Below, piece by piece: positions 6,793 through 39,718 of a stretch of DNA of 64,000 nt. Both the position numbers and the translations under genes were made by a program. Below the pieces are notes generated by a model, which saw only the letters and a program-made list of their open reading frames with translations, did not search any database and was not told where the DNA came from. Within the stretch, counting starts at the first letter, position 1. Each line of letters starts with the position of its first letter. This DNA is from a bacterium (GTDB lineage: Bacteria > Joyebacterota > Joyebacteria > Joyebacterales > Joyebacteraceae). Location: assembly GCA_025774935.1 (NCBI GenBank), contig JALGZK010000010.1:1-64000 (forward strand), written 5' to 3'.

Positions 6793-7572
6793 CTACTTCC
6801 TGCGCCTCCTCACCACGCCGACCATGCCGACGATGCCGCTCCCCAGGAGGATGAGCGTTCCGGGCTCCGGAACGACTCCAGCGCCGTCGATGCCATCGAA
6901 CGTGCCGTTGAGACTGACGAGGTCGTTGCGGCACCCGAGCGTCCACTCGAGGCCAATCCCCTCGCCGATCCCGGGGTTCATGAGCAGGCTCTTCGAGATC
7001 GTCACTTCGAACACGTACGTTCCGAAGCCGTTCTCCATGAGGCCGTAGTCGTAGTAGTCGACAGTGGCCGTGCCGAGATCGACGCCGCCCGCGAAGTTCG
7101 ACGGCCCGGTCTCAGCCACGAAGTGCGTGTTCGCCTGGAACCAGTCGGTCTCTTCCGTATCGGCCACCTGTCCGGTCCCACCGTCGATGTCGACACCGAG
7201 GTCGTAGGTTCCCCCCCCCAGATCGATGGCCAGGTCACCCGGGACTACCTGCTCCCCGAGGAACTGGACTCCGTCGGGAATCGGCAGGGACGTCACGACC
7301 GCGATGTAGGCGTTGGTTGCGTCGTCATCGAAGTACATAGCCTCGATGTCGAACTGCTCACCGCCGTACGGACGTCTGCCCAGGTGTGTGCTCCAGTTGT
7401 CGTCGGCGAAGTACTCGGCCGTCTCCGATGTCGGCGTCCAGTCGTGGGTGAAGTCGCCGAATCTGTCGACGGCCAGCTCCACTCCGAACCAATCGGAGAG
7501 GAGCGCCGCCCCGGCGGGAACCGCCGAGAGCAGCAAGAGCACGCCGACGCCGAGGATCAGAAGTCGTCTCAT
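6793..7572 (-). CDS. PEP-CTERM sorting-domain protein
   Basis: 259 residues. An N-terminal signal peptide (MRRLLILGVGVLLLLSAVPAGAAL) is followed by an acidic secreted domain. The C-terminus is a textbook PEP-CTERM tail: VPEPGT, a hydrophobic segment LILLGSGIVGMVGVV and a basic RRRRK end. Such tails are recognised and cleaved by exosortase, and a matching exosortase is at 17744-18682. The central domain, with several D-rich strands (YFDDDATNAYIAV), is not one I can name. The ATG at 7572 has GGAGG 6 nt upstream and overlaps the stop of a 31-codon gene (ATGA), which implies translational coupling. Confidence 0.93.
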   Translation of the reverse strand: MRRLLILGVGVLLLLSAVPAGAALLSDWFGVELAVDRFGDFTHDWTPTSETAEYFADDNWSTHLGRRPYGGEQFDIEAMYFDDDATNAYIAVVTSLPIPDGVQFLGEQVVPGDLAIDLGGGTYDLGVDIDGGTGQVADTEETDWFQANTHFVAETGPSNFAGGVDLGTATVDYYDYGLMENGFGTYVFEVTISKSLLMNPGIGEGIGLEWTLGCRNDLVSLNGTFDGIDGAGVVPEPGTLILLGSGIVGMVGVVRRRRK

Positions 7573-7726: not shown

Positions 7727-7756
7727 ATAGTATCACAAGTAGCCAGCCCTTGACAA
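7727..7756 (-). promoter_or_regulatory. Sigma-70-like promoter of the mini-peptide/PEP-CTERM unit
   Basis: On the reverse strand TTGTCA (7751-7756), an 18-nt spacer and TACTAT (7727-7732) lie in an AT-richer patch about 60 nt before the mini-peptide start. A second TTGTCAAGG copy follows the -10, so the element TTGTCAAGG occurs twice and could be an operator. Confidence 0.55.
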
Positions 7757-7971: not shown

Positions 7972-9996
7972 CTACCTCAGCACCGTGATCTTCCTGGTTG
8001 CGACGGCCTCGGGCGTACGGAGCTCCGCGAGGTAGACCCCGGCGGACACCCGGTGCCCCGACTCGTCACATGCGTCCCAGGCGACCGTGTGATCGCCCGG
8101 CTGCAGGCGTCCGTAGGCCAGCTCGCGGACGACCCGCCCCGAGGTCGCGAGGATCCTGATCGCCACCCGGTCTACGCCCCCCGGCAGCGAGAACGCGAGG
8201 GTGGCCGGTCCCGGCGCCGGATTCGGGTAAGCGCTCAGGGCGAGCGTCGGCGCCGTGGCGCTCGCCATGACGATCTCCATGCTGTCGGACGGCCCGCTCT
8301 CGTTCCCGGCCGCGTCCGCGGCGGTGACCCAGTACCTGTAGGAGTACCCCTCCTCGACGCTCTCGTCGAGGAAGCTGGGTCCCGAAACCGGAGGGTCGGT
8401 GAGACAGACCGTCCGGCAAGGCGTGTCGTCCTGGGCCCGTGAACTCCTGTAGACGTAGTACCCGACCAGATCGTCCTCCTGGTTCGGCTCCCACGTGATC
8501 CGGATCCCGTTCCCCTCCTCCCACGCCAGAAGGCCCGAGGGAGCGGACGGCGGGACCAGATCGGGCCCCAGAAGCGTTACGAACTCCTGGTCCCCACCGA
8601 TGTTGAGACCTCCCACCCGGTCCCAGGCGAGGACCCGGTAGTGGTACGTCGTCCCGGGCATCAGGTCCACGAGGTCCGCGCCGAACACGCAGTCGCCGGC
8701 ACCGGCAGGAACGCCCGTCCGTGAAGAGCCGTACGTGGTGGTGAGCCCGTACTCGATCCAGGTCGTGCAGGGACGAGACGTGACCCAGTTCAGCCGCGCA
8801 GTCTCCTCTCCGACGGCACCGACGCCCGCTCGGATGATCCCGGGGGGATGCGTGTACGTCATCTGTCCCGTCGGAGCGATCGTCCTGAACGCGCCGACGT
8901 CTCCGCAGGTGGTGTCGCTCCCGCAGGCCGACAGGGTCATGAACGAGTACTCCGCGTACGGGGCGACTGGCGCCACCACGACCGCGTGGTTCGTGACGAG
9001 CGTCGTGTCGATATCGGTCGAGCAGTCGAGCACCCCACCCGTGCCGTACCGGACGAGCGACGACGCCGCGCGGTCGGTGCTCCACGTGATGAGAACCGAC
9101 GTTGCCGAGAGCTCTTCCACGTCGACCCCCCACATCATCGGCGGTCCGGTCGGACCCAGCTCGAGCGTCTCGAACGTCGCGTCCACGGAGCCCGCCTGCG
9201 AACCGTACGCGTCCTCAGACAGGACGCGGAAGTGGTAGAGCTCACCGTCCACGAGCCCGCTCAACGTGACCGAGTGCTCCGACACGAGCTCCTCGTCGAC
9301 GGGCGTCTCCAGGCCGTACGCGCTCGTCAGGCCGTAGAGCACCTGGGAGGTGGCGGGGCGGGACGTCCGCCATGCGACCGCGGCCGTCGTCGGCGTGATG
9401 TCGGTCACCTGGACGTCAGTGATCTCGAGGGGCGCGAGCAACGTCTGGAACTCGTGGTCGCCGGACTGCGCGCTCCCGCCCTCCGCGTCCTCGGAGACGA
9501 CGCGGAAGTGGTAAACGCTGCCGGACGTGAGGCCGGTCAGCTCGACGGCGTGGTCGGTCACGAGAGGCGTCCCGTGGGGAGACCAGAGCCCGTAGGACTC
9601 GGTGGGCCCGTACTCGACGCGGGAGTCGGCGGGGTGGTTCGTCTGCCACGTGACGAGGACCGAGGTCCCCGTGATCTCGGAGACCGCGACGTCGTGGATC
9701 ACGAGCGAGCCGTCGAGGGTGAAGCAGATGGAGAGATCGCCGGGCGGGTAACCGGAGTCGTCGACCACGAAGCTCATGATCCCGGACTCGTCAGAGACGA
9801 CCGGGCTCCCGTTGAACTCGTCGCCGTCGACCGTCACCTCGAACCCTGAGGAGGGCGCGACGCCGATCACGATCTGCGCGAGTTCCGCCCTGGAGCCGGG
9901 CTCCGCCTGGGCGGCTCCGGCCAGGAGCCCCCAGACGAGAAGGGCCGTGACCGCCGCACATGTGCCGGTCTTTTCCGCAGTAGCAGTTAGCGTCAT
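7972..9996 (-). CDS. Secreted multi-fibronectin-III protein with FlgD-like C-terminal sorting domain
   Basis: 674 residues. A signal peptide (residues about 1-31, ending AAQAEP) is followed by a short beta domain and four or five fibronectin type III-like modules at roughly 95-190, 190-280, 285-370, 380-480 and 490-590. They share signatures such as SVLVTWQTNHPADSRVEYG and VYHFRVVSED. The C-terminus (about 590-674), with YPNPAPGPATLAFSL, VAIRILATSGRVVREL and SAGVYLAEL, is the FlgD_Ig/Por-secretion-tail type that FCB-group bacteria use to send proteins through a type IX-like route. The modules resemble the purple-acid-phosphatase-type N-terminal fold. Role inferred: cell-surface or released adhesion protein. 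A sigma-54-like element lies upstream. Confidence 0.85.
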   Translation of the reverse strand: MTLTATAEKTGTCAAVTALLVWGLLAGAAQAEPGSRAELAQIVIGVAPSSGFEVTVDGDEFNGSPVVSDESGIMSFVVDDSGYPPGDLSICFTLDGSLVIHDVAVSEITGTSVLVTWQTNHPADSRVEYGPTESYGLWSPHGTPLVTDHAVELTGLTSGSVYHFRVVSEDAEGGSAQSGDHEFQTLLAPLEITDVQVTDITPTTAAVAWRTSRPATSQVLYGLTSAYGLETPVDEELVSEHSVTLSGLVDGELYHFRVLSEDAYGSQAGSVDATFETLELGPTGPPMMWGVDVEELSATSVLITWSTDRAASSLVRYGTGGVLDCSTDIDTTLVTNHAVVVAPVAPYAEYSFMTLSACGSDTTCGDVGAFRTIAPTGQMTYTHPPGIIRAGVGAVGEETARLNWVTSRPCTTWIEYGLTTTYGSSRTGVPAGAGDCVFGADLVDLMPGTTYHYRVLAWDRVGGLNIGGDQEFVTLLGPDLVPPSAPSGLLAWEEGNGIRITWEPNQEDDLVGYYVYRSSRAQDDTPCRTVCLTDPPVSGPSFLDESVEEGYSYRYWVTAADAAGNESGPSDSMEIVMASATAPTLALSAYPNPAPGPATLAFSLPGGVDRVAIRILATSGRVVRELAYGRLQPGDHTVAWDACDESGHRVSAGVYLAELRTPEAVATRKITVLR

Positions 9997-10240
9997 CCGA
10001 TTGGGTCCCCGCCGCCGTTGGGAGTTTCACCTTCACGTCGAGATCCGCGGGGCCGGAGGCGGGTGCATAGGGGGTTGCCTGTTCGGTGGAAAACCCGGGG
10101 GCCGGCTTCGTGGGGGGGTACGTTACCGGCCCGGCGCGACCGAGGCTTCTCGAGTGCCTCACGGTCCCCGCAGGATCTCGGCGAATCCGTAATCGCTCCT
10201 CATGTTGCACGGGATTCGCTCCCACACACCCACGACAGAT

Positions 10241-10256
10241 TGCACAATCTATGCCA
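10241..10256 (-). promoter_or_regulatory. Candidate sigma-54 promoter (-24/-12)
   Basis: The reverse strand reads TGGCATAGATTGTGCA, close to the consensus TGGCAC-N5-TTGCA, with the invariant GG and GC exactly 12 nt apart. It lies 245 nt before the fibronectin-III gene. A 14-nt imperfect palindrome, AGATTG-2-CAATCT (10237-10250), overlaps it. Confidence 0.5.
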
Positions 10257-10337
10257 GTTAGGAAGTAACAATGCAGGCAGGGTACCGAAAAGGGCAGGGA
10301 ATGAGTGCTCCGAGGGGGCCTTGCGGGCTCGCCGGCC

Positions 10338-10355
10338 GAGAGGGCCGGCCCTCTC
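10338..10355. repeat. Perfect 18-bp dyad, possible activator site
   Basis: GAGAGGGCCGGCCCTCTC is a perfect palindrome about 90 bp upstream of the sigma-54-like element, the usual distance for an enhancer bound by an NtrC-type regulator. With no loop it is a poor hairpin, which favours protein binding over termination. The regulator at 13011-14492 is the obvious candidate. Confidence 0.45.
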
Positions 10356-10398
10356 ATTAATAGAGGAGCCTCGCCTGGGCACGCGCGGGGGCAAAGAG

Positions 10399-10427
10399 CG
10401 AGGGGCCCACAGCGTTCGGGCCCCTCG
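10399..10427 (-). terminator. Terminator of the fibronectin-III lipoprotein gene
   Basis: A 10-bp stem CGAGGGGCCC/GGGCCCCTCG with a 9-nt loop is followed on the reverse strand by CTCTTTG. It stands about 70 nt after the stop codon at 10499. Confidence 0.65.
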
Positions 10428-10498
10428 AATTCCTCATTCCGCCTGTCGCCTCCCCCGCTACCCGGGGGAGCTTCGTCCCGCGTGTCGGCGGCGTACCT

Positions 10499-12112
10499 CT
10501 ACGGCGCCGCCGGGCGCGGCGAGCCCGAGACGGTGTTCGAGACCGCCGTCCCTCCGAACGAGTCGACGACAGCAACCTCGTACCAGTAGACGAACGAATC
10601 GACCAGGCTCTCGTGCGTGAAGAAGGTCTCCGTCCGGTCGGTCAGGCGTGCGATCACACGCTTGGTGCCCAGGTCCGGCGGGTTCGGGGGATCCTGGTCC
10701 CAGCAGAAGAGCTCGTACGCGAGGAAGTCGTCGTCCGTGTTCACCGACCATGAGAGCTCGAGGCTCGCCGAGTCAGGCGCCCACGGCTCCGCGAGCTCCA
10801 CCGGCGTGGGGAGCTCGTTCTCCATCGTCGTCCCGACGACCTCGTTGCTGATGGCCGAGAGGCCGATGTCGTCGAAGACGTAGACCGCGTAGTAGTACGT
10901 CGAGTCGGGCTCGAGACCGGTGTCCGTGAAATCGGTCAGCGTCTGGTTCGTGATGTCCGCGATGAGCTCGCGCTCGGACGACGTGTCGACCCCCGGGATG
11001 TACGACCGGTAGAGCCTGTAGCTGTCGAAGTCGCTGTCGTTGTTCCTCGTCCACGACAGCCCGATCCGCCGCTCGGAGATCGGCACAGGCGGGTTCAGGG
11101 TCACGGACGTCGGCGGGTCGAGGATCGTGACGAGTGTCTGCGCCACGACCGGCTCCGCCTGGTTTCCGACGTCGTCCGTGAAGAAGCCGCTGACCGTTCC
11201 GTCGAGAATCTCCACTCCGATCTCGATGACGTAGTCGCGCTCGTAGACTCCGTCGTTCGGAACCGTGTCCCCTCCTACGCCGTCGTCGTAGAGGGCGATG
11301 GCAATCACGACGTTCCCGATGTCGACCTCCGCCTGACCGTACAGCTCCTGCGCGTCGAGCGTGAAGTGGATCGTCTCCCCCGCGACCATGGACGCGCCCT
11401 GAGTGTCTTCCGTCACCGACTCGATCACGGCCCGGGTGTCGAGGATGATGCCGTCGCTCGCGATCGTGGAGTCGTTGTCCTCGCCGTCGCGGAATCGGGC
11501 GTAGACGTTCTTCACCCCGTCGCCTCCCTCAAGCTCCCACGCGGACGTCGTGCGGAACGGCTGCCACTGGGCGCCGACGAGATTCTCGTTGTTCGAGAGC
11601 TGCATCAGCTGCGTGCCGGCGGCGGCGGACATCGTGAGCGTTACGTTTCGGCTGGGCGTCTTCATCTGGCCGTTGTCGATCGTCACGCCGTAGATCGCGG
11701 GCGTCGCCGTGATGGTCGACGACAGCAGGCCCTCGAGCCCGTGCGTGTTCACGGCCGAGACCGCGTATGCGTACTCCGTGCCGTTCCTCACTTCTTCGTC
11801 CGCGTAGTACGAGGTCGTCGCCGTGTTCAGGAGCTCGAGGTCCTCGGTCTCGTCCTCGATCACCTCCCACCGGTACACCATGTACTCCTCGATGTCGGTC
11901 GTGTCGCTCATCGACCAGTTCAGAGCGACGACGCGGTCCGCGATGATCGCGCCGAGATTCGAGGGCTTCCCCGGCTCCTCGGAGCCCGTGTTCGGGTTCT
12001 CGGGGTCGGCCGAGTTGTCGCGCGTTGGCGACGTGAGTTCGCCGCCGCAGCCGGCGAGGCCCACGACGAGGATGAGGGCCAGTCCGGCAGTAAGGAACCC
12101 GTGTAGTTTCAT
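10499..12112 (-). CDS. Lipoprotein with fibronectin type III modules
   Basis: 537 residues. A signal peptide ends in the lipobox LAGC (Cys about 22), followed by a disordered linker (GGELTSPTRDNSADPENPN). A first fibronectin-III module (about 50-140, VVALNWSMSDTTDIEEYMVYR) precedes a middle region resembling a choice-of-anchor/bacterial Ig module (about 150-330, with ALYDDGVGGDTVPNDGVYERDY). Two more fibronectin-III modules follow, at about 340-430 (RIGLSWTRNNDSDFDSYRLYR) and 440-530. It is expected at the outer membrane. It lies 45 nt downstream of the PEGA-domain gene and both probably use the promoter at 13002-13030. The biological role is unknown. Confidence 0.8.
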   Translation of the reverse strand: MKLHGFLTAGLALILVVGLAGCGGELTSPTRDNSADPENPNTGSEEPGKPSNLGAIIADRVVALNWSMSDTTDIEEYMVYRWEVIEDETEDLELLNTATTSYYADEEVRNGTEYAYAVSAVNTHGLEGLLSSTITATPAIYGVTIDNGQMKTPSRNVTLTMSAAAGTQLMQLSNNENLVGAQWQPFRTTSAWELEGGDGVKNVYARFRDGEDNDSTIASDGIILDTRAVIESVTEDTQGASMVAGETIHFTLDAQELYGQAEVDIGNVVIAIALYDDGVGGDTVPNDGVYERDYVIEIGVEILDGTVSGFFTDDVGNQAEPVVAQTLVTILDPPTSVTLNPPVPISERRIGLSWTRNNDSDFDSYRLYRSYIPGVDTSSERELIADITNQTLTDFTDTGLEPDSTYYYAVYVFDDIGLSAISNEVVGTTMENELPTPVELAEPWAPDSASLELSWSVNTDDDFLAYELFCWDQDPPNPPDLGTKRVIARLTDRTETFFTHESLVDSFVYWYEVAVVDSFGGTAVSNTVSGSPRPAAP

Positions 12113-13001: not shown

Positions 13002-13030
13002 ATTCTATGGTCACCCTTCGGTGCTGTCAA
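13002..13030 (-). promoter_or_regulatory. Near-consensus sigma-70 promoter embedded in the regulator's 3' end
   Basis: On the reverse strand TTGACA (13025-13030), a 17-nt spacer and TAGAAT (13002-13007) match consensus at 11 of 12 positions. The element spans the stop codon of the response regulator (13011-13013) and points to the PEGA gene about 80 nt away. Confidence 0.85.
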
Positions 13031-14492
13031 GGTCACCCGGACCGCGAGCGGCGCGCGGGCGGCTGTCGCTCGGGTCGAATCCCTCGGAACGCCCCGCTTC
13101 CCGCGGTTTTCTTCTTGCGAGTGACTTGAATCCTGTGACATCGATTTCGTATTTTCGAATGAGATCGTAGACGGTCGACCGGCTCACGCCGATCGAACGG
13201 GCCGCACGAGAGACGTTGCCGGCGGCCCGCCTGAGCGCGTCGACGACGATCTCGTGTTCCAGTGCGTCCTTCGCTTCACCGAGTGTCTGCGCGCGCCGTT
13301 CAGTCTCGGAGTCGAGCCCGAGGTCGGCCGCCGTGAGCCTGTGACCGGATGACATGACGACCGCGCGCTTGACCCGGTTCTCCAGCTCGGGGATGTTCCC
13401 GGGCCACTCGTGCGCCATCATCGCCCGCACCGCCGACCGGGTGAACCCCGACAACCTCCGCCCGTGCTCGGAGGCGCAGCGCTCGAGGAGGTCCTCCGCG
13501 AGAAGGGCGATGTCCTCGCCCCGCTCTCTGAGCGGGGGCAGCGTGACCGTCACCACGCTCAACTGATAGTAGAGGTCCTCCCGGAACCCGCCTTCCGCGA
13601 CGACCTCTTCCAGATCGTCATCGGCGGCAGCTATGATCCTGACGTCCGCCTTGATCGGATCGTGCGGGCCTTTCCGCTCGATCTCTCCCGACTGAAGGAA
13701 CGCGGAGAGCCGAGCCTGAAGATGCTGCGACAGCTCGTCGACTCCTACGACGAACAGCGTCCCGCCGTCGGCCTGTTCGATTCGGCCCGGCATCTTCTCC
13801 GCGCCGTTGAACGTCCCGTTCCCGTTGCCGTTTCCGAAGACCTCGGCCTCGAGGTACTCGGACGGCGTCGCGCGCAGGTCGACAGCGACGAAGGGCCCTC
13901 GCGAGCGGCGACTCAGGTGGTGGATTCCTCGGGCGATGAGCTCCCTTCCGGTTCCTCGTTCGCCCACGAGAAGCACGCCGACTTCGGTCGCGGCGACCTT
14001 CCTGGCGGAGGAGAACACGTCCTGCATGGCCTCACAGGTCCCCGCCAGGCTGTCGAGGCGCTCGACGCCCGAGAGACGGTCCGGAACGGCGTCCGCGGCC
14101 GCCTCCAGCTCCTGGATCCTGAGCGCGCGCTTCACGAGGACCCCGAACTCGTCGATGTCGAAGGGCTTCACGCAACAGTCGCACGCTCCGAGCTCGATGG
14201 CGCGGACGGCGAGGTCGCGGTCCCCGCTCGGGGCGACCACGATGATCTTGAGCCTGAGCCTGGCCTTCCGCGCCAGCCGGAGGAGCTCGAGCTCCTCGCC
14301 GGAGCCCTCTTCGCCGCGCTCCAGCGTGCCGTCGAGCGTCATCACGTCCGGGCGGAACCGGCGGACGGCCTCGATGGCACCGGCGATCGTGTCGGAGGCG
14401 CACACGTCGTAGTCGCGCGCGAGACCTTCCCGGAGCAGCCTCCGGGTGACCTCGTCGCCTTCCACGATCAGGACTCTCTTGCGCTCGGACAC
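13011..14492 (-). CDS. NtrC-type response regulator with degenerate AAA+ domain
   Basis: 493 residues: receiver (about 5-120, phosphoacceptor D54 in MTLDGT, K109 in CVKPFD), AAA+ domain (about 145-380) and a Fis-type HTH (about 410-455, GNVSRAARSIGVSRSTVYDL). The ATPase signatures are altered: Walker A is GERGTGRE (R183 for Lys), the sigma-54 loop GAFTGA reads GTFNGA (226-231), Walker B reads GTLFVVGV where LFLDEI is expected, and the sensor II Arg of GNVREL is Pro368. The arginine-finger region FREDL is intact. Position beside an exosortase/EPS locus recalls PrsR-type regulators of PEP-CTERM genes. It probably binds DNA but may not hydrolyse ATP. Confidence 0.85.
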   Translation of the reverse strand: MSERKRVLIVEGDEVTRRLLREGLARDYDVCASDTIAGAIEAVRRFRPDVMTLDGTLERGEEGSGEELELLRLARKARLRLKIIVVAPSGDRDLAVRAIELGACDCCVKPFDIDEFGVLVKRALRIQELEAAADAVPDRLSGVERLDSLAGTCEAMQDVFSSARKVAATEVGVLLVGERGTGRELIARGIHHLSRRSRGPFVAVDLRATPSEYLEAEVFGNGNGNGTFNGAEKMPGRIEQADGGTLFVVGVDELSQHLQARLSAFLQSGEIERKGPHDPIKADVRIIAAADDDLEEVVAEGGFREDLYYQLSVVTVTLPPLRERGEDIALLAEDLLERCASEHGRRLSGFTRSAVRAMMAHEWPGNIPELENRVKRAVVMSSGHRLTAADLGLDSETERRAQTLGEAKDALEHEIVVDALRRAAGNVSRAARSIGVSRSTVYDLIRKYEIDVTGFKSLARRKPREAGRSEGFDPSDSRPRAARGPGDLDSTEG

Positions 14493-14595: not shown

Positions 14596-16125
14596 CTACT
14601 CGGGCAGGGCCTCCAGCTGCCGGGCCGCCTCTTCCGCCCACGGCTCTCCGGCGTACGTGCTCGCGATGTCCTCGAGCACCTCGCGCGCACTGGCGAAGTC
14701 CTCGAGCTGCCTCGTGTACAGATCGGCGGCCTGCAGCTTCATGATCGGCGCGTCCTCCGAGTCGGGCAGAAGCTCCGACGTCTCTAGGAGGATCCGCGCC
14801 GCCGCCTCCCACTTCTCCTGTCGGATCCGCGCGTCGACGAGGTACCCGCGGGCGGCAATCTCGGCCGACGTCCCGGCGTACTCCCTGATCACGCGCGTGT
14901 ACTGCTCCACGGCCCGCTCGAGCGTGCTGGCCCCGACCTCCTCGTCACCGCTCTGGACGTACCGGTCGGACACGTGGATGAGTGCGCGGAGGCCGTACAG
15001 CGTGGTCGGGTACTCGCGCGCGAGAACGCTGTACTGCGCCGCCGCGCGATCCCAGTTCCCGGTCGCCTCGAAGCTCATCGCCAGGTACTGCATCGCCGTG
15101 GCGCTCACGACCTGCTCGGTCGTAAACTCGTCGATGACTCGTGAGAGGCGCCGCCGCGCGTCGTCGTGGCGCCCCGCGGCGAGGTCCTGTCTCGCGAGCG
15201 AGACGGCCGCCGTCGCGCCCGACACGTCGTCCCCGTACTCGCTCTCGACCCTCTCGTAGTACTCGCGCGCGAGACCGTTGCGCCCGAGTCTCGTCTCGTA
15301 GATCTCGGCCAGTCCGAGCCAGAGGGGCGCGCGGTTCTCGGGCGTTCCGAAGTCGCGGTCGAGCTCCTCGTACACCCTGGCCGCTTCCTCCCAGCGGTCC
15401 TCGAGCCCGTAGCTCTCCGCCGTGAGCGACGTCGCGAGCTCCGCGGTGGGCGATTCCGGCCACTCCGCGATCCAACGGGCGTAGTACTCCCTGGCACGGT
15501 CGGACCACGCCGCCGCCTCGGCCGCATCTCCCCGAGCGCGGTAGACCGCCGCGACCGACAGGGGCGCGCGGAGGATCCGCGTGTCGGGACTCGACTCCGG
15601 GTCGCGGGCGGGCTGCCAGTCCTCAATGAGCCCCGCGTAGACCGCCACGGCCTCGGGCCACCTGTCCTCGCGCCGCTCGACGGCGCCGAGCGCGAGCGTC
15701 GCATCGATCGCAAGGCCCCTCTCGAGCGCGTAGCTGTCTCGCACGGACGAGTAGAGGCGCCGCGCCTCGTCGAAGTCCCCGCGGTCCATCGCGAGCTGCC
15801 CGAGCGCGAGCCTGCTGTGCCCGGAGATGCGGGCGATCTGCCTGGCGACCTCGGAGACGCCCTCCGAATCCCCCTCGGGTGGCGGGAACGCCCGCGTGAT
15901 GTTCCGGTACTCGTCCTCGACGCGGGCGCGCATCTCGTCGGTGTTCATACCGGGGTTGACGCTCACCGCGCGCATGAGGCTGCTCGCGCGCCAGGCCATT
16001 CTCTCGGCCTCGTACCTGTCCCTGATCTCCCTCGATGATTCGCATCCGACGCACACGGCCACGACCACGATCAGGAGGACCGCCGCGAGCCGCCTTGCTG
16101 CGCGAGTGTCTCTCAGTGTCATCAT
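14596..16125 (-). CDS. TPR-repeat lipoprotein
   Basis: 509 residues starting MMTLRDT; a signal peptide ends near CVGC, a slightly unusual lipobox, so lipidation is probable only. The rest is a long array of TPR-like helical pairs (for example FDEARRLYSSVRDSYALERG, WEEAARVYEEL, WDRAAAQYSVLAREYP, SAREVLEDIASTYAGEP) of about 34 residues each. Similar TPR lipoproteins occur in exosortase/EPS loci and may scaffold secretion across the periplasm. Its ATG overlaps the stop of the upstream membrane-protein gene by 4 bp (ATGA), so the two are translated together. Confidence 0.8.
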   Translation of the reverse strand: MMTLRDTRAARRLAAVLLIVVVAVCVGCESSREIRDRYEAERMAWRASSLMRAVSVNPGMNTDEMRARVEDEYRNITRAFPPPEGDSEGVSEVARQIARISGHSRLALGQLAMDRGDFDEARRLYSSVRDSYALERGLAIDATLALGAVERREDRWPEAVAVYAGLIEDWQPARDPESSPDTRILRAPLSVAAVYRARGDAAEAAAWSDRAREYYARWIAEWPESPTAELATSLTAESYGLEDRWEEAARVYEELDRDFGTPENRAPLWLGLAEIYETRLGRNGLAREYYERVESEYGDDVSGATAAVSLARQDLAAGRHDDARRRLSRVIDEFTTEQVVSATAMQYLAMSFEATGNWDRAAAQYSVLAREYPTTLYGLRALIHVSDRYVQSGDEEVGASTLERAVEQYTRVIREYAGTSAEIAARGYLVDARIRQEKWEAAARILLETSELLPDSEDAPIMKLQAADLYTRQLEDFASAREVLEDIASTYAGEPWAEEAARQLEALPE

Positions 16126-17102: not shown

Positions 17103-17747
17103 TCAGCCCTCCCCGGCGAACACGAAGAGCTCCGGAAGGCGCACGAGCGCGGCCTCCGAGAAGTCCTTCAGCACCTCCATGGCGCCGTCGAAGTCACCGT
17201 CCCTCACGACGGTCGACACTCTAACGAACGCTCCGTAGGTCACGTTCGACACGATCCCCGACGCTGCCATCCGCGTCATGAACTTGTCGCGGTCGGCCGT
17301 CGCCAGATCCCCCGCCGTGTACCACCAGTAGACCGCGAGCCGGCGGACGCCCTGCTGCTCGACGAGCACCCAGTTGGCGTCGAAGCCGCCGTCTTTCCTC
17401 CAGAGGGGCTCGAGCCCCGAGTCGACGTCCGTCCATCCCTGGGACCGGTAGCATACGAGCGGCTCGTGCGCGCCGTACCGGTCGTTCTGATGGAAGATGA
17501 TGACGAACCATATCCAGTCGCCCACGTCGTTCGTGTACCGCCGCGCCAGCGTGTCCGTCGCCTCGAGTTCCTCGTAGACGACGTCTTCGAACGACAGATC
17601 GACGCTGCGCCATCCTCCGAGCTGCGCCGGGAACGCTCCGAGCGAGCCCGCCTCGAGCTCCATCCTGTCGGGCGGGTTCAGGTGCACGTAGAAGGCGCCC
17701 GCCCCGAGGAGCGCGACCACGACGATCGTTCCGAATGAGGTCCTCAC
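17103..17747 (-). CDS. epsI: EpsI family exosortase-associated protein
   Basis: 214 residues: an N-terminal membrane anchor (TSFGTIVVVALLGAGAFYV), then a periplasmic domain with LGGWRSVDLSF, the family landmark EPLVCYRSQGW, and VYWWYTAG. EpsI (DUF3485) proteins accompany exosortase in PEP-CTERM/EPS loci, in some organisms fused to it. Its ATG overlaps the exosortase stop by 4 bp. The exact role in polysaccharide export or protein sorting is unknown for the family. Confidence 0.9.
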   Translation of the reverse strand: MRTSFGTIVVVALLGAGAFYVHLNPPDRMELEAGSLGAFPAQLGGWRSVDLSFEDVVYEELEATDTLARRYTNDVGDWIWFVIIFHQNDRYGAHEPLVCYRSQGWTDVDSGLEPLWRKDGGFDANWVLVEQQGVRRLAVYWWYTAGDLATADRDKFMTRMAASGIVSNVTYGAFVRVSTVVRDGDFDGAMEVLKDFSEAALVRLPELFVFAGEG

Positions 17748-18682
17748 GCGCCCCTCCCCTCAGGGGCGGTCTCTTCCCCCTCGCACGTCTCACATCTCAG
17801 GAGCTTCCGCACCACCACGAGTCCGACGAACGCGAACATGAACAGCAGGAACCCTGAGAAGTCGTGGAAGAACCCGAGCGCGGCGTCGATGCCCCAGACG
17901 TGGGCGACGAGACAGAGCGCGGTGATCCTGAGCATGTTCCCGGCGATCGCGAGCGGCACGCTGACCGCGACGATGACGAGCCGCTTCCACGCGGCGCCCG
18001 CCGTCAGATACGCGAAGAGCGTTCCGAGGGCCACGAGCGCGATGAGCGACCTGAGCCCGCTGCAGGGGTCCGCGATCCGAAGCGACCCGGCCGGGACGTG
18101 GATCGTCATGCCCGAGCGGACGAGTGGCACGCCGAGCTTCGCGGCGAGTGCACTCCCTGAGCGCGCCGCGAAGACCTTGAGGTTGAAACTCAGCACGTTC
18201 ATGAGGAACGGCGGCCACGGCAGCATGAACACGAGGAACGCGAGCGGGAACCAGATCACCCTCGTCGCCCGACCCCCGAAGAAGAAGAGCGACAGGCCGA
18301 AGAGCATGAGGACGAACGAGTAGCCCTGCGTCATGAAGATGCCCGCACGGATCGACACCACGTTCCCTACGAGCGCGAGAGCGATGATCGCGATGCCCCA
18401 AGCCGTCCCCGCCCTCACCGCATCCACGAACCTCTTCCGCTCGCGCCACAGGAGGAAGAGGACGATCGGCGGGATCAGGAACCCGTGCGAGTAGTTCGGC
18501 GAGGACATCCAGGTCCGCCAGAGCGTCGGGAAGACCGGGTAGTACACGATCGCAACGAGGACGGCCGCCACCGCGAAGCGCGCGAGCTGCCGCGCGGCGA
18601 GCGTCCCCCGAGGGGTCGCGCCCCCGCTACCGGTCGCGTTCCGGAGCTCCGCCCCGTCTCGTCTGTCGTTCCCGGTCGTCAA
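17744..18682 (-). CDS. Exosortase
   Basis: 312 residues, about eight transmembrane segments. The catalytic triad region is visible: the Cys in DPCSGLRS, the Arg in NMLRITA and the His in FHDFSGF, as in exosortases, which are membrane transpeptidase-like enzymes that process PEP-CTERM tails. The start is taken as TTG 18682, because it overlaps the stop of the upstream GT fusion (TTGA) with GGAG 6 nt upstream; the longer upstream frame is low-complexity shadow sequence. The PEP-CTERM protein at 6793-7572 is a likely substrate. The neighbouring EpsI overlaps by 4 bp. Confidence 0.93.
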   Translation of the reverse strand: MTTGNDRRDGAELRNATGSGGATPRGTLAARQLARFAVAAVLVAIVYYPVFPTLWRTWMSSPNYSHGFLIPPIVLFLLWRERKRFVDAVRAGTAWGIAIIALALVGNVVSIRAGIFMTQGYSFVLMLFGLSLFFFGGRATRVIWFPLAFLVFMLPWPPFLMNVLSFNLKVFAARSGSALAAKLGVPLVRSGMTIHVPAGSLRIADPCSGLRSLIALVALGTLFAYLTAGAAWKRLVIVAVSVPLAIAGNMLRITALCLVAHVWGIDAALGFFHDFSGFLLFMFAFVGLVVVRKLLRCETCEGEETAPEGRGA

Positions 18683-20535
18683 CGCTGCTCCTCCGTGCTC
18701 AGGCGGGGCCCGCTCTCCTCCCCTCGGGACCTCCTGAGGGCTCCGAACGTCCCCAGGAGGATCCTGAGATCGAGGAGGAGCGAGCAGTTCTCGACGTAGA
18801 ACCTGTCGAGCCTGACCTTCTCCTCGAGGTCGATCTCGTCCCTCCCATTGATCTGCGCCCAGCCGGTGAGGCCGGGCCGGACCAGGTCGACCCCGACCTG
18901 GCGCCTGAGTTCGATCAGCTCGTACTGGTTGTAGAGGGCGGGCCGCGGCCCGACCACGCTCATCTCGCCGCGGAGCACGTTCACGAGGTTCGGGTACTCG
19001 TCGGCGCTCGTCCTCCTCAGGAACCACCCGAACTTCGTCACGCAGCCGTCCTTCATCTGGCTGTGGTTCATCAGGTCTGTCGCGAGATCCGGCGTCTCGC
19101 GGTGCATCGTTCGGAGCTTCAGGATCGTGAACTCCTGTGAGTAGACGCCGATCCGCCTCTGCGTGAAGTGCGCGTGCCCCGGCGAGTCGAGCCTGACGGC
19201 GATCGCCAGGAGCGCGTGGAGGGGCGCTCCCACGATCAGGATGCCGAATGCCGTGAGGACGTCTAGCAAGTACTTGACCCCGAGGTAGTAGCGGAACTTG
19301 AGGTGGCTTCCGCAGAGCGCGCGCTCTGATGCGAGGATCTCCTCGAGAAGCTCCTCGAGCTTGCCGGCGAGGGCGGTCCTCGAGTACGCGTCCTCGACGA
19401 AGACCCGACCGCTCCTCCCGAGCGTGTGGCGCATCTCGGCGTCACCAAGGAGCGTCTTCACGGCCTCGGCGAGGCCTCGCCCGTCACCCGGCTTCGTCAC
19501 GATGCCGCTGCCGGCACGTTCGACGATCTCCCGCGCGTCGCCCTCCACCGCGGCGACTACTGGCTTCCCGCACGCCATGTAGTCGAAGAGCTTCACCGGG
19601 ATCGTGCTCGCCGAGAACTCCCCGCTCCTCGTCGTCGCGAGGCAGAGAGCTGAGCGGTGCACGAGCTCGCTGAGCTCGTCCGGCTGCTTGCTCGGAAGGA
19701 ACTCGACGTTCCTGAGACCCCGCCCGTCGACCTGGCGGACGAGGTCCTGCTTCGCGACGCCGTCGCCCACCAGGACGAACCTCGCGTCGCTCTCGTCCCT
19801 CAGGATCTCGGCGGCTTCGAGGATCACGTCCATCCCGTGAACGAGCCCGTGCGTCCCCGAGTAGATGACCGTCCGGCCGTCTCCGCCGTTGCCAGCGGGT
19901 CCTCCGGCGGCCGGAGCGAAAAGCTCCGTGTCCGCCCCGTTCGTGATGAGCGAGATCCTGTGCCGCGGGATGCCACGCTCGAGCATCAGTCGCTCCATAC
20001 CGGGCGTGACGGCCACGAGCCTCGCTGCCCGGCGGTAGAGGAACTGCTCGAGGCTCTCCGCGGCGCGGATGGCCCGCCGGCTCCTCAGCTCGCCGAGCTC
20101 GACGGCCGCGTGTGGCCAGTAGTCCCTGAGATCGAGCACGAACGGGACGCCACGGACGAGTCCGAGGAACCACGCCGTCAGTCCGAGGAAGAGCGGCGGA
20201 GAACTCACGAGGACCAGATCGCACTTCCCCGCGGCGCACCCGCCGACCGCGGCGGTGATCATGAACGAGAGCTGGTTCGCAACGCGGGTGAAGAACGTCT
20301 TCCTGGGCGTCGCGAAGAGGTAGCACCTCAGGATGCGGACGCCGTCTACCTCCTCGCGGCAAGCGAGCTTCCTCCGGTAGCGGGGCTGCTTCACGCCGCT
20401 CGGGTGGTTGGGCATGCCCGTCACGACCGTCACGGCGTGGCCCCGCTTCGCGAGATTCGTCGCGAAGTGATAGGCCCGAAGCGGCGCCGCGCCGGTCTCC
20501 GGCGGGTAGTACTGTGTCAGGAAGAGGATCCTCAT
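18679..20535 (-). CDS. GT4 glycosyltransferase fused to a polyprenyl-phosphate sugar phosphotransferase
   Basis: 618 residues with two enzymes in one chain. Residues about 1-405 are a GT-B fold GT4 ([30 protein letters not shown], the E-x7-E-like region SASTIPVKLFDYMACGKPVV). Residues about 415-600 are a bacterial sugar transferase of the WcaJ/WbaP catalytic type: a membrane helix (YLLDVLTAFGILIVGAPLHA), then FTILKLRTM, TSADEYPNLVNVLRGEMSVV, GPRP and RPGLTGWAQINGR. The second part would place the first sugar-phosphate on undecaprenyl phosphate, and the first part could add the next sugar. Its ATG overlaps the preceding GT4 gene by 4 bp. Confidence 0.92.
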   Translation of the reverse strand: MRILFLTQYYPPETGAAPLRAYHFATNLAKRGHAVTVVTGMPNHPSGVKQPRYRRKLACREEVDGVRILRCYLFATPRKTFFTRVANQLSFMITAAVGGCAAGKCDLVLVSSPPLFLGLTAWFLGLVRGVPFVLDLRDYWPHAAVELGELRSRRAIRAAESLEQFLYRRAARLVAVTPGMERLMLERGIPRHRISLITNGADTELFAPAAGGPAGNGGDGRTVIYSGTHGLVHGMDVILEAAEILRDESDARFVLVGDGVAKQDLVRQVDGRGLRNVEFLPSKQPDELSELVHRSALCLATTRSGEFSASTIPVKLFDYMACGKPVVAAVEGDAREIVERAGSGIVTKPGDGRGLAEAVKTLLGDAEMRHTLGRSGRVFVEDAYSRTALAGKLEELLEEILASERALCGSHLKFRYYLGVKYLLDVLTAFGILIVGAPLHALLAIAVRLDSPGHAHFTQRRIGVYSQEFTILKLRTMHRETPDLATDLMNHSQMKDGCVTKFGWFLRRTSADEYPNLVNVLRGEMSVVGPRPALYNQYELIELRRQVGVDLVRPGLTGWAQINGRDEIDLEEKVRLDRFYVENCSLLLDLRILLGTFGALRRSRGEESGPRLSTEEQR

Positions 20536-38296: not shown

Positions 38297-39334
38297 CTAC
38301 GGTGTCGTTGTGGTTGTCTGCTGCTGCTGCGCCGTCGCGATCGCCGCGTTCCTGAACCTGCGGTCGTCGATCTCCCGCTCGATGCTGAGGTAGAGGAGGT
38401 AGGCGGTGAGCACCTGGGTCGTCGCGGTGAGAAGCGCGCCCGCGGCGTTCCAGAACTGGCCGCCGAACGTGTCCTGCGTCGATCCGATGACCACCCTGTC
38501 TCCCGCCCTCAGGAAGAACGGCTTCGGCGTGCCGCGTGTGAGCACGCTCTTGAGGTCCACCTTCGCGACGGCGTGCCCCTCGCCCGCGTCCATCACCACC
38601 GAGACCTCGTCCAGTCGCGCGTCGACCGTCGTGCCTCCCGCGATCGCGATGAGCTGGAAGAGGTCGATCCTGTCCGACGTCGCGTACGCCCCGGGCGTGT
38701 TCACCTCGCCGAAGATGTAGACCATGCCCGGGCCCGCGAGGCCTCCCCCGCCAATGATCGACGGGATCTCGATCGTGTCGCCGGGCATGAGCGCGGGGAG
38801 CGGCTGCGCCGTCTCGCCTCTCATGTACGCGCCGAGATCGACGTTGATGAGCTCGGGTCCGCCGATCGAGGGTCTCAGGATCGAGACGTTGGAGAGGTCG
38901 GCGCTCGGGAGCGCCCCTCCGGCGGAACTGAGGAGCTGCAGGATGTCGGGGATGGCCTCGAAGCTGTAGCGCCCGGGCGCGGTGACCTGTCCGGTCAGAT
39001 AGACGGCTCTGCTGTTGAACTGCTCGACCGACACCGTTACCTGGGTGGTCTCCCTCGTGTAGTCTCTCAGGCGCTGGACGATCTCCCTCGAAAGCTCGGA
39101 CGGAGTGAGTCCGGCCGCCGTGAGCTCGCCGATCGGGGGGAGCGTGATCGTCCCGTTCGATTTGACGGTGACGTCCTGGTTCAGGTCGGAGTGACGCCAG
39201 ACCGCGACCCTGAGCACATCGCCCGGGCCGATGACGTACTCGATTCCCTGCTGCTGCGCCGGCGCCTCGACCGCAACGAGCGGCAGGATCATGGTAACGA
39301 GCAGGATCGATGACACGAGCTTTCTGCTGGACAT
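38297..39334 (-). CDS. Wza-like polysaccharide export protein
   Basis: 345 residues from ATG 39334, where a signal peptide begins (SSRKLVSSILLVTMILPLVA). A Poly_export domain (YVIGPGDVLRVAVWRHSDLNQDV, TLPPIGELTAAGLTPSEL) is followed by two SLBB modules (VYLTGQVTAPGRYSF and VYIFGEVNTPGAYAT). There is no lipobox cysteine, and the C-terminus has a short hydrophobic segment (ALLTATTQVLTAYLLYLS) that could form the outer-membrane part. It is the first gene of the EPS locus. Its exact subtype (Wza or a soluble variant) is not certain. Confidence 0.9.
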   Translation of the reverse strand: MSSRKLVSSILLVTMILPLVAVEAPAQQQGIEYVIGPGDVLRVAVWRHSDLNQDVTVKSNGTITLPPIGELTAAGLTPSELSREIVQRLRDYTRETTQVTVSVEQFNSRAVYLTGQVTAPGRYSFEAIPDILQLLSSAGGALPSADLSNVSILRPSIGGPELINVDLGAYMRGETAQPLPALMPGDTIEIPSIIGGGGLAGPGMVYIFGEVNTPGAYATSDRIDLFQLIAIAGGTTVDARLDEVSVVMDAGEGHAVAKVDLKSVLTRGTPKPFFLRAGDRVVIGSTQDTFGGQFWNAAGALLTATTQVLTAYLLYLSIEREIDDRRFRNAAIATAQQQQTTTTTP

Positions 39335-39517
39335 CGTTCGTCCCCCCGAGTCAGAACTGCGTGGAAGTCGCCGGTCGTGCCGGCGGCGTCCCGTCTGTTC
39401 CACGTTCTCGCTGAGTTCCCAGAGTTGTGCGGCACACGACGGGCGGCCCGGGACGCGAGTCCCGCAGTCGCCCGGCGCACACATGGTTACCGGCTACGGA
39501 CACAGCGGTCAACAGGA

Positions 39518-39533
39518 AACAGTCAGAACTGTT
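39518..39533. repeat. AACAGT-4-ACTGTT dyad, possible operator
   Basis: A 6+6 inverted repeat with a 4-nt spacer lies about 185 nt before wza. Its size suits a dimeric regulator, but there is only one such site. Confidence 0.3.
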
Positions 39534-39647
39534 GCCTTTTCCGACACCCCCACTCCAGCCACTCGCACGGGTCATCTCTAATACCTTGCGGTTCAACAAG
39601 TTACGGATATCCACAAGGGGGGCTCCGCGTGCCGGGAGCGAACGCAG

Positions 39648-39694
39648 GGACCCCCCGGAAAGCACACAATGAAGCAGTTCCGGGGGGTCCTTTT
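39648..39694. terminator. Large hairpin downstream of ddl
   Basis: A 13-bp perfect stem GGACCCCCCGGAA/TTCCGGGGGGTCC encloses a 17-nt loop. TTTT follows on the plus strand. On the minus strand it lies 25 nt after ddl and would separate the housekeeping transcript from the EPS locus, though the T-tract is on the wrong side for that direction. Confidence 0.55.
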
Positions 39695-39718
39695 GCATCA
39701 CCTGTGCCAGAGAGAACC

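Follow-up and report, generated by a model that had tools for sequence, protein, structure and literature searches.

A PrsR-type response regulator with lost ATPase motifs and its probable role at a sigma-70-type EPS promoter

What can an NtrC-like response regulator still do beside an exosortase locus once it has lost the motifs for ATP hydrolysis and sigma-54 contact? The question is raised by a gene in the 64,000-nt stretch of contig JALGZK010000010.1 analyzed here (the window), whose locus also encodes an exosortase with EpsI and a PEP-CTERM protein and includes a long run of EPS genes (Table 1). For Proteobacteria, an earlier study proposed that PrsR, with PrsK as its kinase, activates PEP-CTERM genes in a sigma-54-dependent manner; the PEP-CTERM promoters there carry DNA motif 1 upstream, followed by a -24/-12 site (PMC1569441). 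A preliminary description of the window had regarded the gene as a phosphorylation-responsive, DNA-binding but non-ATPase regulator, perhaps of sigma-70 type or an antagonist of an active paralogue, and possibly in control of the EPS/exosortase locus.

Table 1. Features of the regulator, its candidate target and the surrounding locus in the window.
Feature	Position	Strand	Remark
PrsR-type response regulator, dead AAA+	13011..14492	-	ORF, 493 aa, GTG start; TIGR02915; Pfam; tree
Receiver domain, decaying	14148..14477	-	D54 and K109 kept; acidic pocket E-G; conserved Thr replaced by Ala
Walker A GERGTGRE, Lys to Arg183	13941..13964	-
Loop 1 GTFNGA replacing GAFTGA	13800..13817	-
Walker B LFVVGV replacing LFLDEI (V249/G250)	13740..13757	-
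Sensor II Pro368, Arg in canonical form	13389..13391	-
Fis-type HTH, PrsR-like recognition helix (SRSTVYDL vs SRPTLYDL)	13143..13280	-
TPR lipoprotein	14596..16125	-
EpsI	17103..17747	-	TIGR02914, PF11984
Exosortase	17744..19027	-	TIGR02602, PF09721; ORF as listed, real start probably internal
PEP-CTERM protein (exosortase substrate)	6793..7572	-	TIGR02595, E 1.9e-6
Sigma-70-type promoter of PEP-CTERM gene	7727..7756	-
Sigma-70-type promoter TTGACA-N17-TAGAAT of downstream PEGA/DUF5683 gene	13002..13030	-	inside 3' end of regulator gene
wza-like polysaccharide export gene, first in EPS operon	38297..39334	-	Pfam Poly_export, SLBB; start inferred from signal peptide
Sigma-70-type EPS operon promoter TTGACC-N17-TAACCA	39484..39512	-
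Candidate PrsR box GTGTCGGAAAAGGCAACAGTT upstream of EPS operon	39527..39547	-	only TGTC[GT]G-N8-ACA in window
Sigma-54-like -24/-12 element TGGCACAGGTGATGCA upstream of EPS operon	39694..39709	-	conserved in 7/7 genomes

The regulator has the Pfam domains Response_reg, Sigma54_activat, AAA_lid_14 and HTH_8 in the order receiver / AAA+ / Fis-HTH, and its best NCBIfam match is TIGR02915 (PrsR), below the cut-off (414.4 against 502.6 bits). Orthologues were found within our phylum sample of 20 genomes, every one from this single family, at identities ranging from 92 to 39%. In a tree of 43 proteins the 14 orthologues form one clade (support 100/100), sister to three canonical PrsRs (L187-L189; support 100/99), as expected from common descent. 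The window's genome also carries rpoN and bEBP paralogues with intact motifs. No intact PrsR copy was found elsewhere in that genome: no paralogue in it groups within the PrsR clade except L007, which is atypical, long-branched and weakly placed. As far as each contig extends, the family gene order runs from the EPS genes through exosortase, EpsI, a membrane protein, the TPR protein and the regulator to fn3 proteins. Two such fn3-repeat proteins (window 7972-12112, minus strand) follow the locus in most relatives, and the one at 7972-9996 (minus strand) bears a sorting-like C-terminal repeat at its end.

Every substitution listed in the preliminary description (R183, LFVVGV, P368 and GTFNGA) is present when residues are counted from the GTG start, as are D54 and K109 of the receiver; two of its statements on retained residues hold in part. 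The receiver does keep D54 and K109, but has Gly at the second position of the acidic pocket and Ala in place of the conserved Thr; likewise the arginine finger in FREDL is retained as the first Arg of FRxDLYYR (R304), but the second is Gln310. From the register of the motif and the alignment, we take Gln310 to correspond to PspF R168 / NtrC1 R299. That arginine contacts the gamma-phosphate, and the roles of the bEBP ATPase-motif residues have been reviewed (PMC7175178). Further losses are the switch Asn, now Asp, and the sensor I position, also Asp. The pattern extends to the whole clade: 14/14 orthologues lack the Walker B Asp and Glu, the switch Asn, the sensor II Arg and an intact GAFTGA, all of which are retained in 4/4 canonical PrsRs, and the Walker A Lys is Arg in eight of the 14. 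The R-fingers vary across the orthologues and are retained in canonical PrsRs. Judged on these motifs, the regulator lacks what a sigma-54 bEBP uses for ATPase activity and sigma-54 contact. On the alignments, the losses are far in excess of chance or sequencing error, and a single loss in the family's common ancestor would be the simplest reading. In an AlphaFold model (mean pLDDT 80.7, pTM 0.60) the AAA+ core lies near NtrC1 and PspF.

Has such a protein simply been released from selection? We calculated dN/dS by the Nei-Gojobori method, in which saturated pairs gave no value. The whole gene gave ratios of 0.11-0.33 and its AAA+ domain 0.11-0.34, against 0.03-0.21 for the AAA+ domain of an intact paralogue; constraint on the regulator is somewhat relaxed yet persisting. 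For most computable pairs the minimum falls in the HTH, which is near-invariant among orthologues and closer to canonical PrsR than to the organism's own paralogues. Purifying selection of this kind means that the regulator is no pseudogene. These data show that the ATPase motifs were lost in the family ancestor and that purifying selection has maintained the DNA-binding domain. With motif losses in 14/14 orthologues and a kept HTH, the earlier view of a retained DNA-binding, non-ATPase regulator of NtrC type is likely to be right.

To which DNA would this domain bind? A box was spotted first at the EPS promoter of the family, and two proteobacterial sequences were next seen to have it; the form aTGTCGgtTTtcTTTACAgTt emerged from proteobacterial PEP-CTERM promoters, where it is often doubled. 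It is probably motif 1 of the original report (PMC1569441). A matrix was built from 9 proteobacterial sites in PEP-CTERM promoters, with no family sites included. Its scores at EPS promoters were 24.5 in G013, 23.3 in G006 and 19.2 in G004, and it stayed below 13 elsewhere across about 270 kb of family sequence; the maximum in 20 shuffled 64-kb windows was 14.6. The box is strong in those three genomes and weak, but positionally conserved, in the window's genome: scores in the window's genus (G000-G002, 11.7) and in G003 (8.9) are both under the shuffled maximum, at the same position. Between the window's genome (G000) and G001 the box is identical at 21/21 positions, and the neighboring 146 nt are 40% identical. 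The call in this genus, within noise by the matrix alone, rests on position and on the G000/G001 identity. The suspected link of the regulator to the EPS/exosortase locus gains support from this candidate box at the EPS promoter and from the gene neighborhood.

The EPS promoter was read in seven genomes from four genera (in g4, g6, g7 and g8 the contigs break off inside the first gene or short of it), and the arrangement box-16 nt-TTGAC-17 nt-TA occurs in 7/7. The -35 is strong (TTGAC 7/7), the -10 is weak (TAACCA, TAGCTT), and the center of the candidate box lies near -61. The canonical distance from box to sigma-54 site is variable, being 52-97 nt in the proteobacterial sequences examined here and 32-92 nt in the original report (PMC1569441). 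Direct contact with polymerase would call for just such a short, unvarying distance to a sigma-70 promoter, and the contrast with the variable enhancer spacing favors an ATP-independent sigma-70 regulator; the candidate site lies beside the promoter as in atypical sigma-70 bEBPs. The tentative sigma-70 assignment of the preliminary description therefore appears probable.

The PEP-CTERM genes, the canonical PrsR targets, give a different picture. A sigma-70-type promoter reached p<=0.05 in 32 of 40 family PEP-CTERM upstream regions; a sigma-54 site was found in 3/40 at the same threshold, where about two are expected, and in 2/3 of the proteobacterial control regions. Sigma-70 scores are also strong at orthologues of the PEGA/DUF5683 gene; the control set used with these scores takes gene starts roughly and includes some genes internal to operons, which makes the contrast a rough guide. 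Control of the family's PEP-CTERM genes by PrsR was rejected, as none of the 40 upstream regions has a box (best 11.65, median 5.3). A motif search of these regions for a separate operator returned chiefly the -35 and the A-rich sequence flanking it. PEP-CTERM genes of the family share near-consensus sigma-70 promoters of the form (C)TTGWCA-N17-TGTGRTAnnAT with this A-rich flank (L220, L208 and L233 in G007 and G009 among them), and the type also occurs in genera without PrsR.

Signal input differs within the family. In five relatives (G003, G004, G006, G010 and G013), PrsK above its cut-off adjoins the regulator, sitting between it and the TPR lipoprotein gene; PrsK is absent from G000-G002, G008 and the g4 genomes searched, and no convincing PrsK remnant was found in the PrsK-less loci. 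The complete receiver set D-D-D-T-K is present in all five PrsK-containing genomes and only in those, whereas each of the nine PrsK-less orthologues lacks at least one residue of the set in the receiver part available (three of the nine have truncated or uncertain N termini). Since these nine form one subclade, they count as one evolutionary event, not nine. With PrsK lost and the receiver decaying in the window's lineage, where an acidic-pocket residue and the Thr are gone, a response to phosphorylation, as first proposed for this protein, is doubtful. The regulator is missing from the locus in G007 and G009, where the PEGA/DUF5683 gene comes right after the TPR gene; the two genera without the regulator (g6 and g8) were counted against our main reading.

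Taken together, the gene is probably the PrsR orthologue of the family's exosortase/EPS locus and, jointly with this, an ATP-independent, class-I-like sigma-70 regulator of the EPS genes, to judge from motifs, tree and promoter spacing. The protein would be incapable of remodelling sigma-54 polymerase; it would bind the box 16 nt upstream of the EPS -35 and regulate sigma-70 polymerase without hydrolyzing ATP, class-I-type activation being mildly preferred to repression. In relatives with PrsK the signal would still be PrsK phosphorylation, while the receiver of the window's lineage probably acts as a pseudo-receiver or a dimerization module. A wider reading is tentative and seems to us to fall a little short of an even chance: the whole two-component regulon would have switched from sigma-54 to sigma-70, with the motor lost, the box moved to a fixed sigma-70 position of the EPS operon and the PEP-CTERM genes freed from PrsR, after which first the kinase, then the receiver and in the end the gene itself were shed, in steps still legible in living genera.

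The strong -35 would also suit a repressor of the sigma-70 EPS promoter, as would the PEP-CTERM promoters of the two genera that lost the regulator, which show no obvious change; yet a box near -61 is off the promoter at the position of a class I activator, and the -10 is weak, making repression unlikely, if a serious contender. Slightly less probable is an antagonist or partner of an active bEBP, either a dead PrsR that sits 146 nt downstream of a sigma-54 EPS promoter and blocks it or a member of mixed rings with an intact paralogue. Both rpoN and such paralogues are available, and the sigma-54-like element TGGCAC-N4-[GA]ATGCA, conserved in 7/7 genomes upstream of the same EPS operon, counts against the sigma-70 reading: it lies exactly 146 nt upstream of the box in 6/7 genomes and 151 nt in one, although the interval is 23-34% identical between most genera, near-random in sequence despite its nearly fixed length. 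It is this rigid distance that keeps the antagonist or partner model alive. The fixed 16-nt spacing from box to TTGAC and the conserved N17-TA suggest sigma-70 instead, the -12 part of the element is ATGC and not TTGC, and the R-finger and L1 surfaces are free to vary in the clade, contrary to conserved ring assembly. Just past this element in G000 and G002 lies a strong hairpin, GGACCCCCCGGAA...TTTCCGGGGGGTCC (39645-39690, minus strand), which is weaker or missing in other genera.

The stepwise decay from AAA+ to PrsK, receiver and whole gene (g6, g8) could also describe a relic nearing loss with little function, but dN/dS is far under 1 in each computable domain pair, the HTH is near-invariant and the target spacing is conserved, and we regard a relic as improbable. 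Data from a MAG invite the suspicion of a sequencing or assembly error, or else of a catalytically active variant. Here the same sites are lost in 14 genomes with differing residues; a search for orthologues with intact motifs, proposed at the outset as a check, returned 0/14, error is refuted by these shared losses, and the two ideas together have a negligible chance of being correct.

The likeness to PrsR (TIGR02915) lies in the sister clade, domain order, exosortase/EPS neighborhood, recognition helix, DNA box and, in the five relatives, the PrsK partner; it differs in lacking the ATPase and sigma-54 motifs, in scoring below the cut-off, and in a box placed at a sigma-70 EPS promoter rather than at sigma-54 PEP-CTERM promoters. 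Vibrio cholerae VpsR is an NtrC-like EPS regulator without GAFTGA that acts at sigma-70 promoters with ATP dispensable, and the NtrC proteins of R. capsulatus and Caulobacter are also bEBPs without GAFTGA acting at sigma-70 promoters (PMC10274813). VpsR resembles the family's regulator in the missing GAFTGA and in the latter's probable EPS regulation at a sigma-70 promoter, and belongs to a different branch; Rhodobacter capsulatus NtrC needs ATP binding and Caulobacter NtrC needs both Walker motifs, whereas Walker B is destroyed in every orthologue here. Pseudomonas FleQ controls biofilm genes at sigma-70 promoters independently of ATP hydrolysis (PMC10723142), but its AAA+ domain is still active and it relies on sigma-54 for flagellar genes. 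Our open-access literature search found no description of an ATPase-dead PrsR, which is weak evidence of absence.

What is new here is that a PrsR box from a proteobacterial matrix matches one place in the family, namely the promoter of the neighboring EPS operon. The transition from sigma-54 activator to sigma-70 regulator has so far been known from scattered single proteins; this family presents transitional stages next to one another in which target box, spacing and partner kinase are all readable, so that the sequence of steps, and whether ATP, phosphate and the AAA+ fold are required, become directly testable. It also suggests that exosortase systems beyond Proteobacteria may follow a different promoter logic. 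The window's genome holds a second atypical bEBP, the above-mentioned L007 (G000:C22:64135-64623), with Walker A intact, GAFTGA deleted, the Walker B Glu changed to Gln and the phospho-acceptor Asp to Glu.
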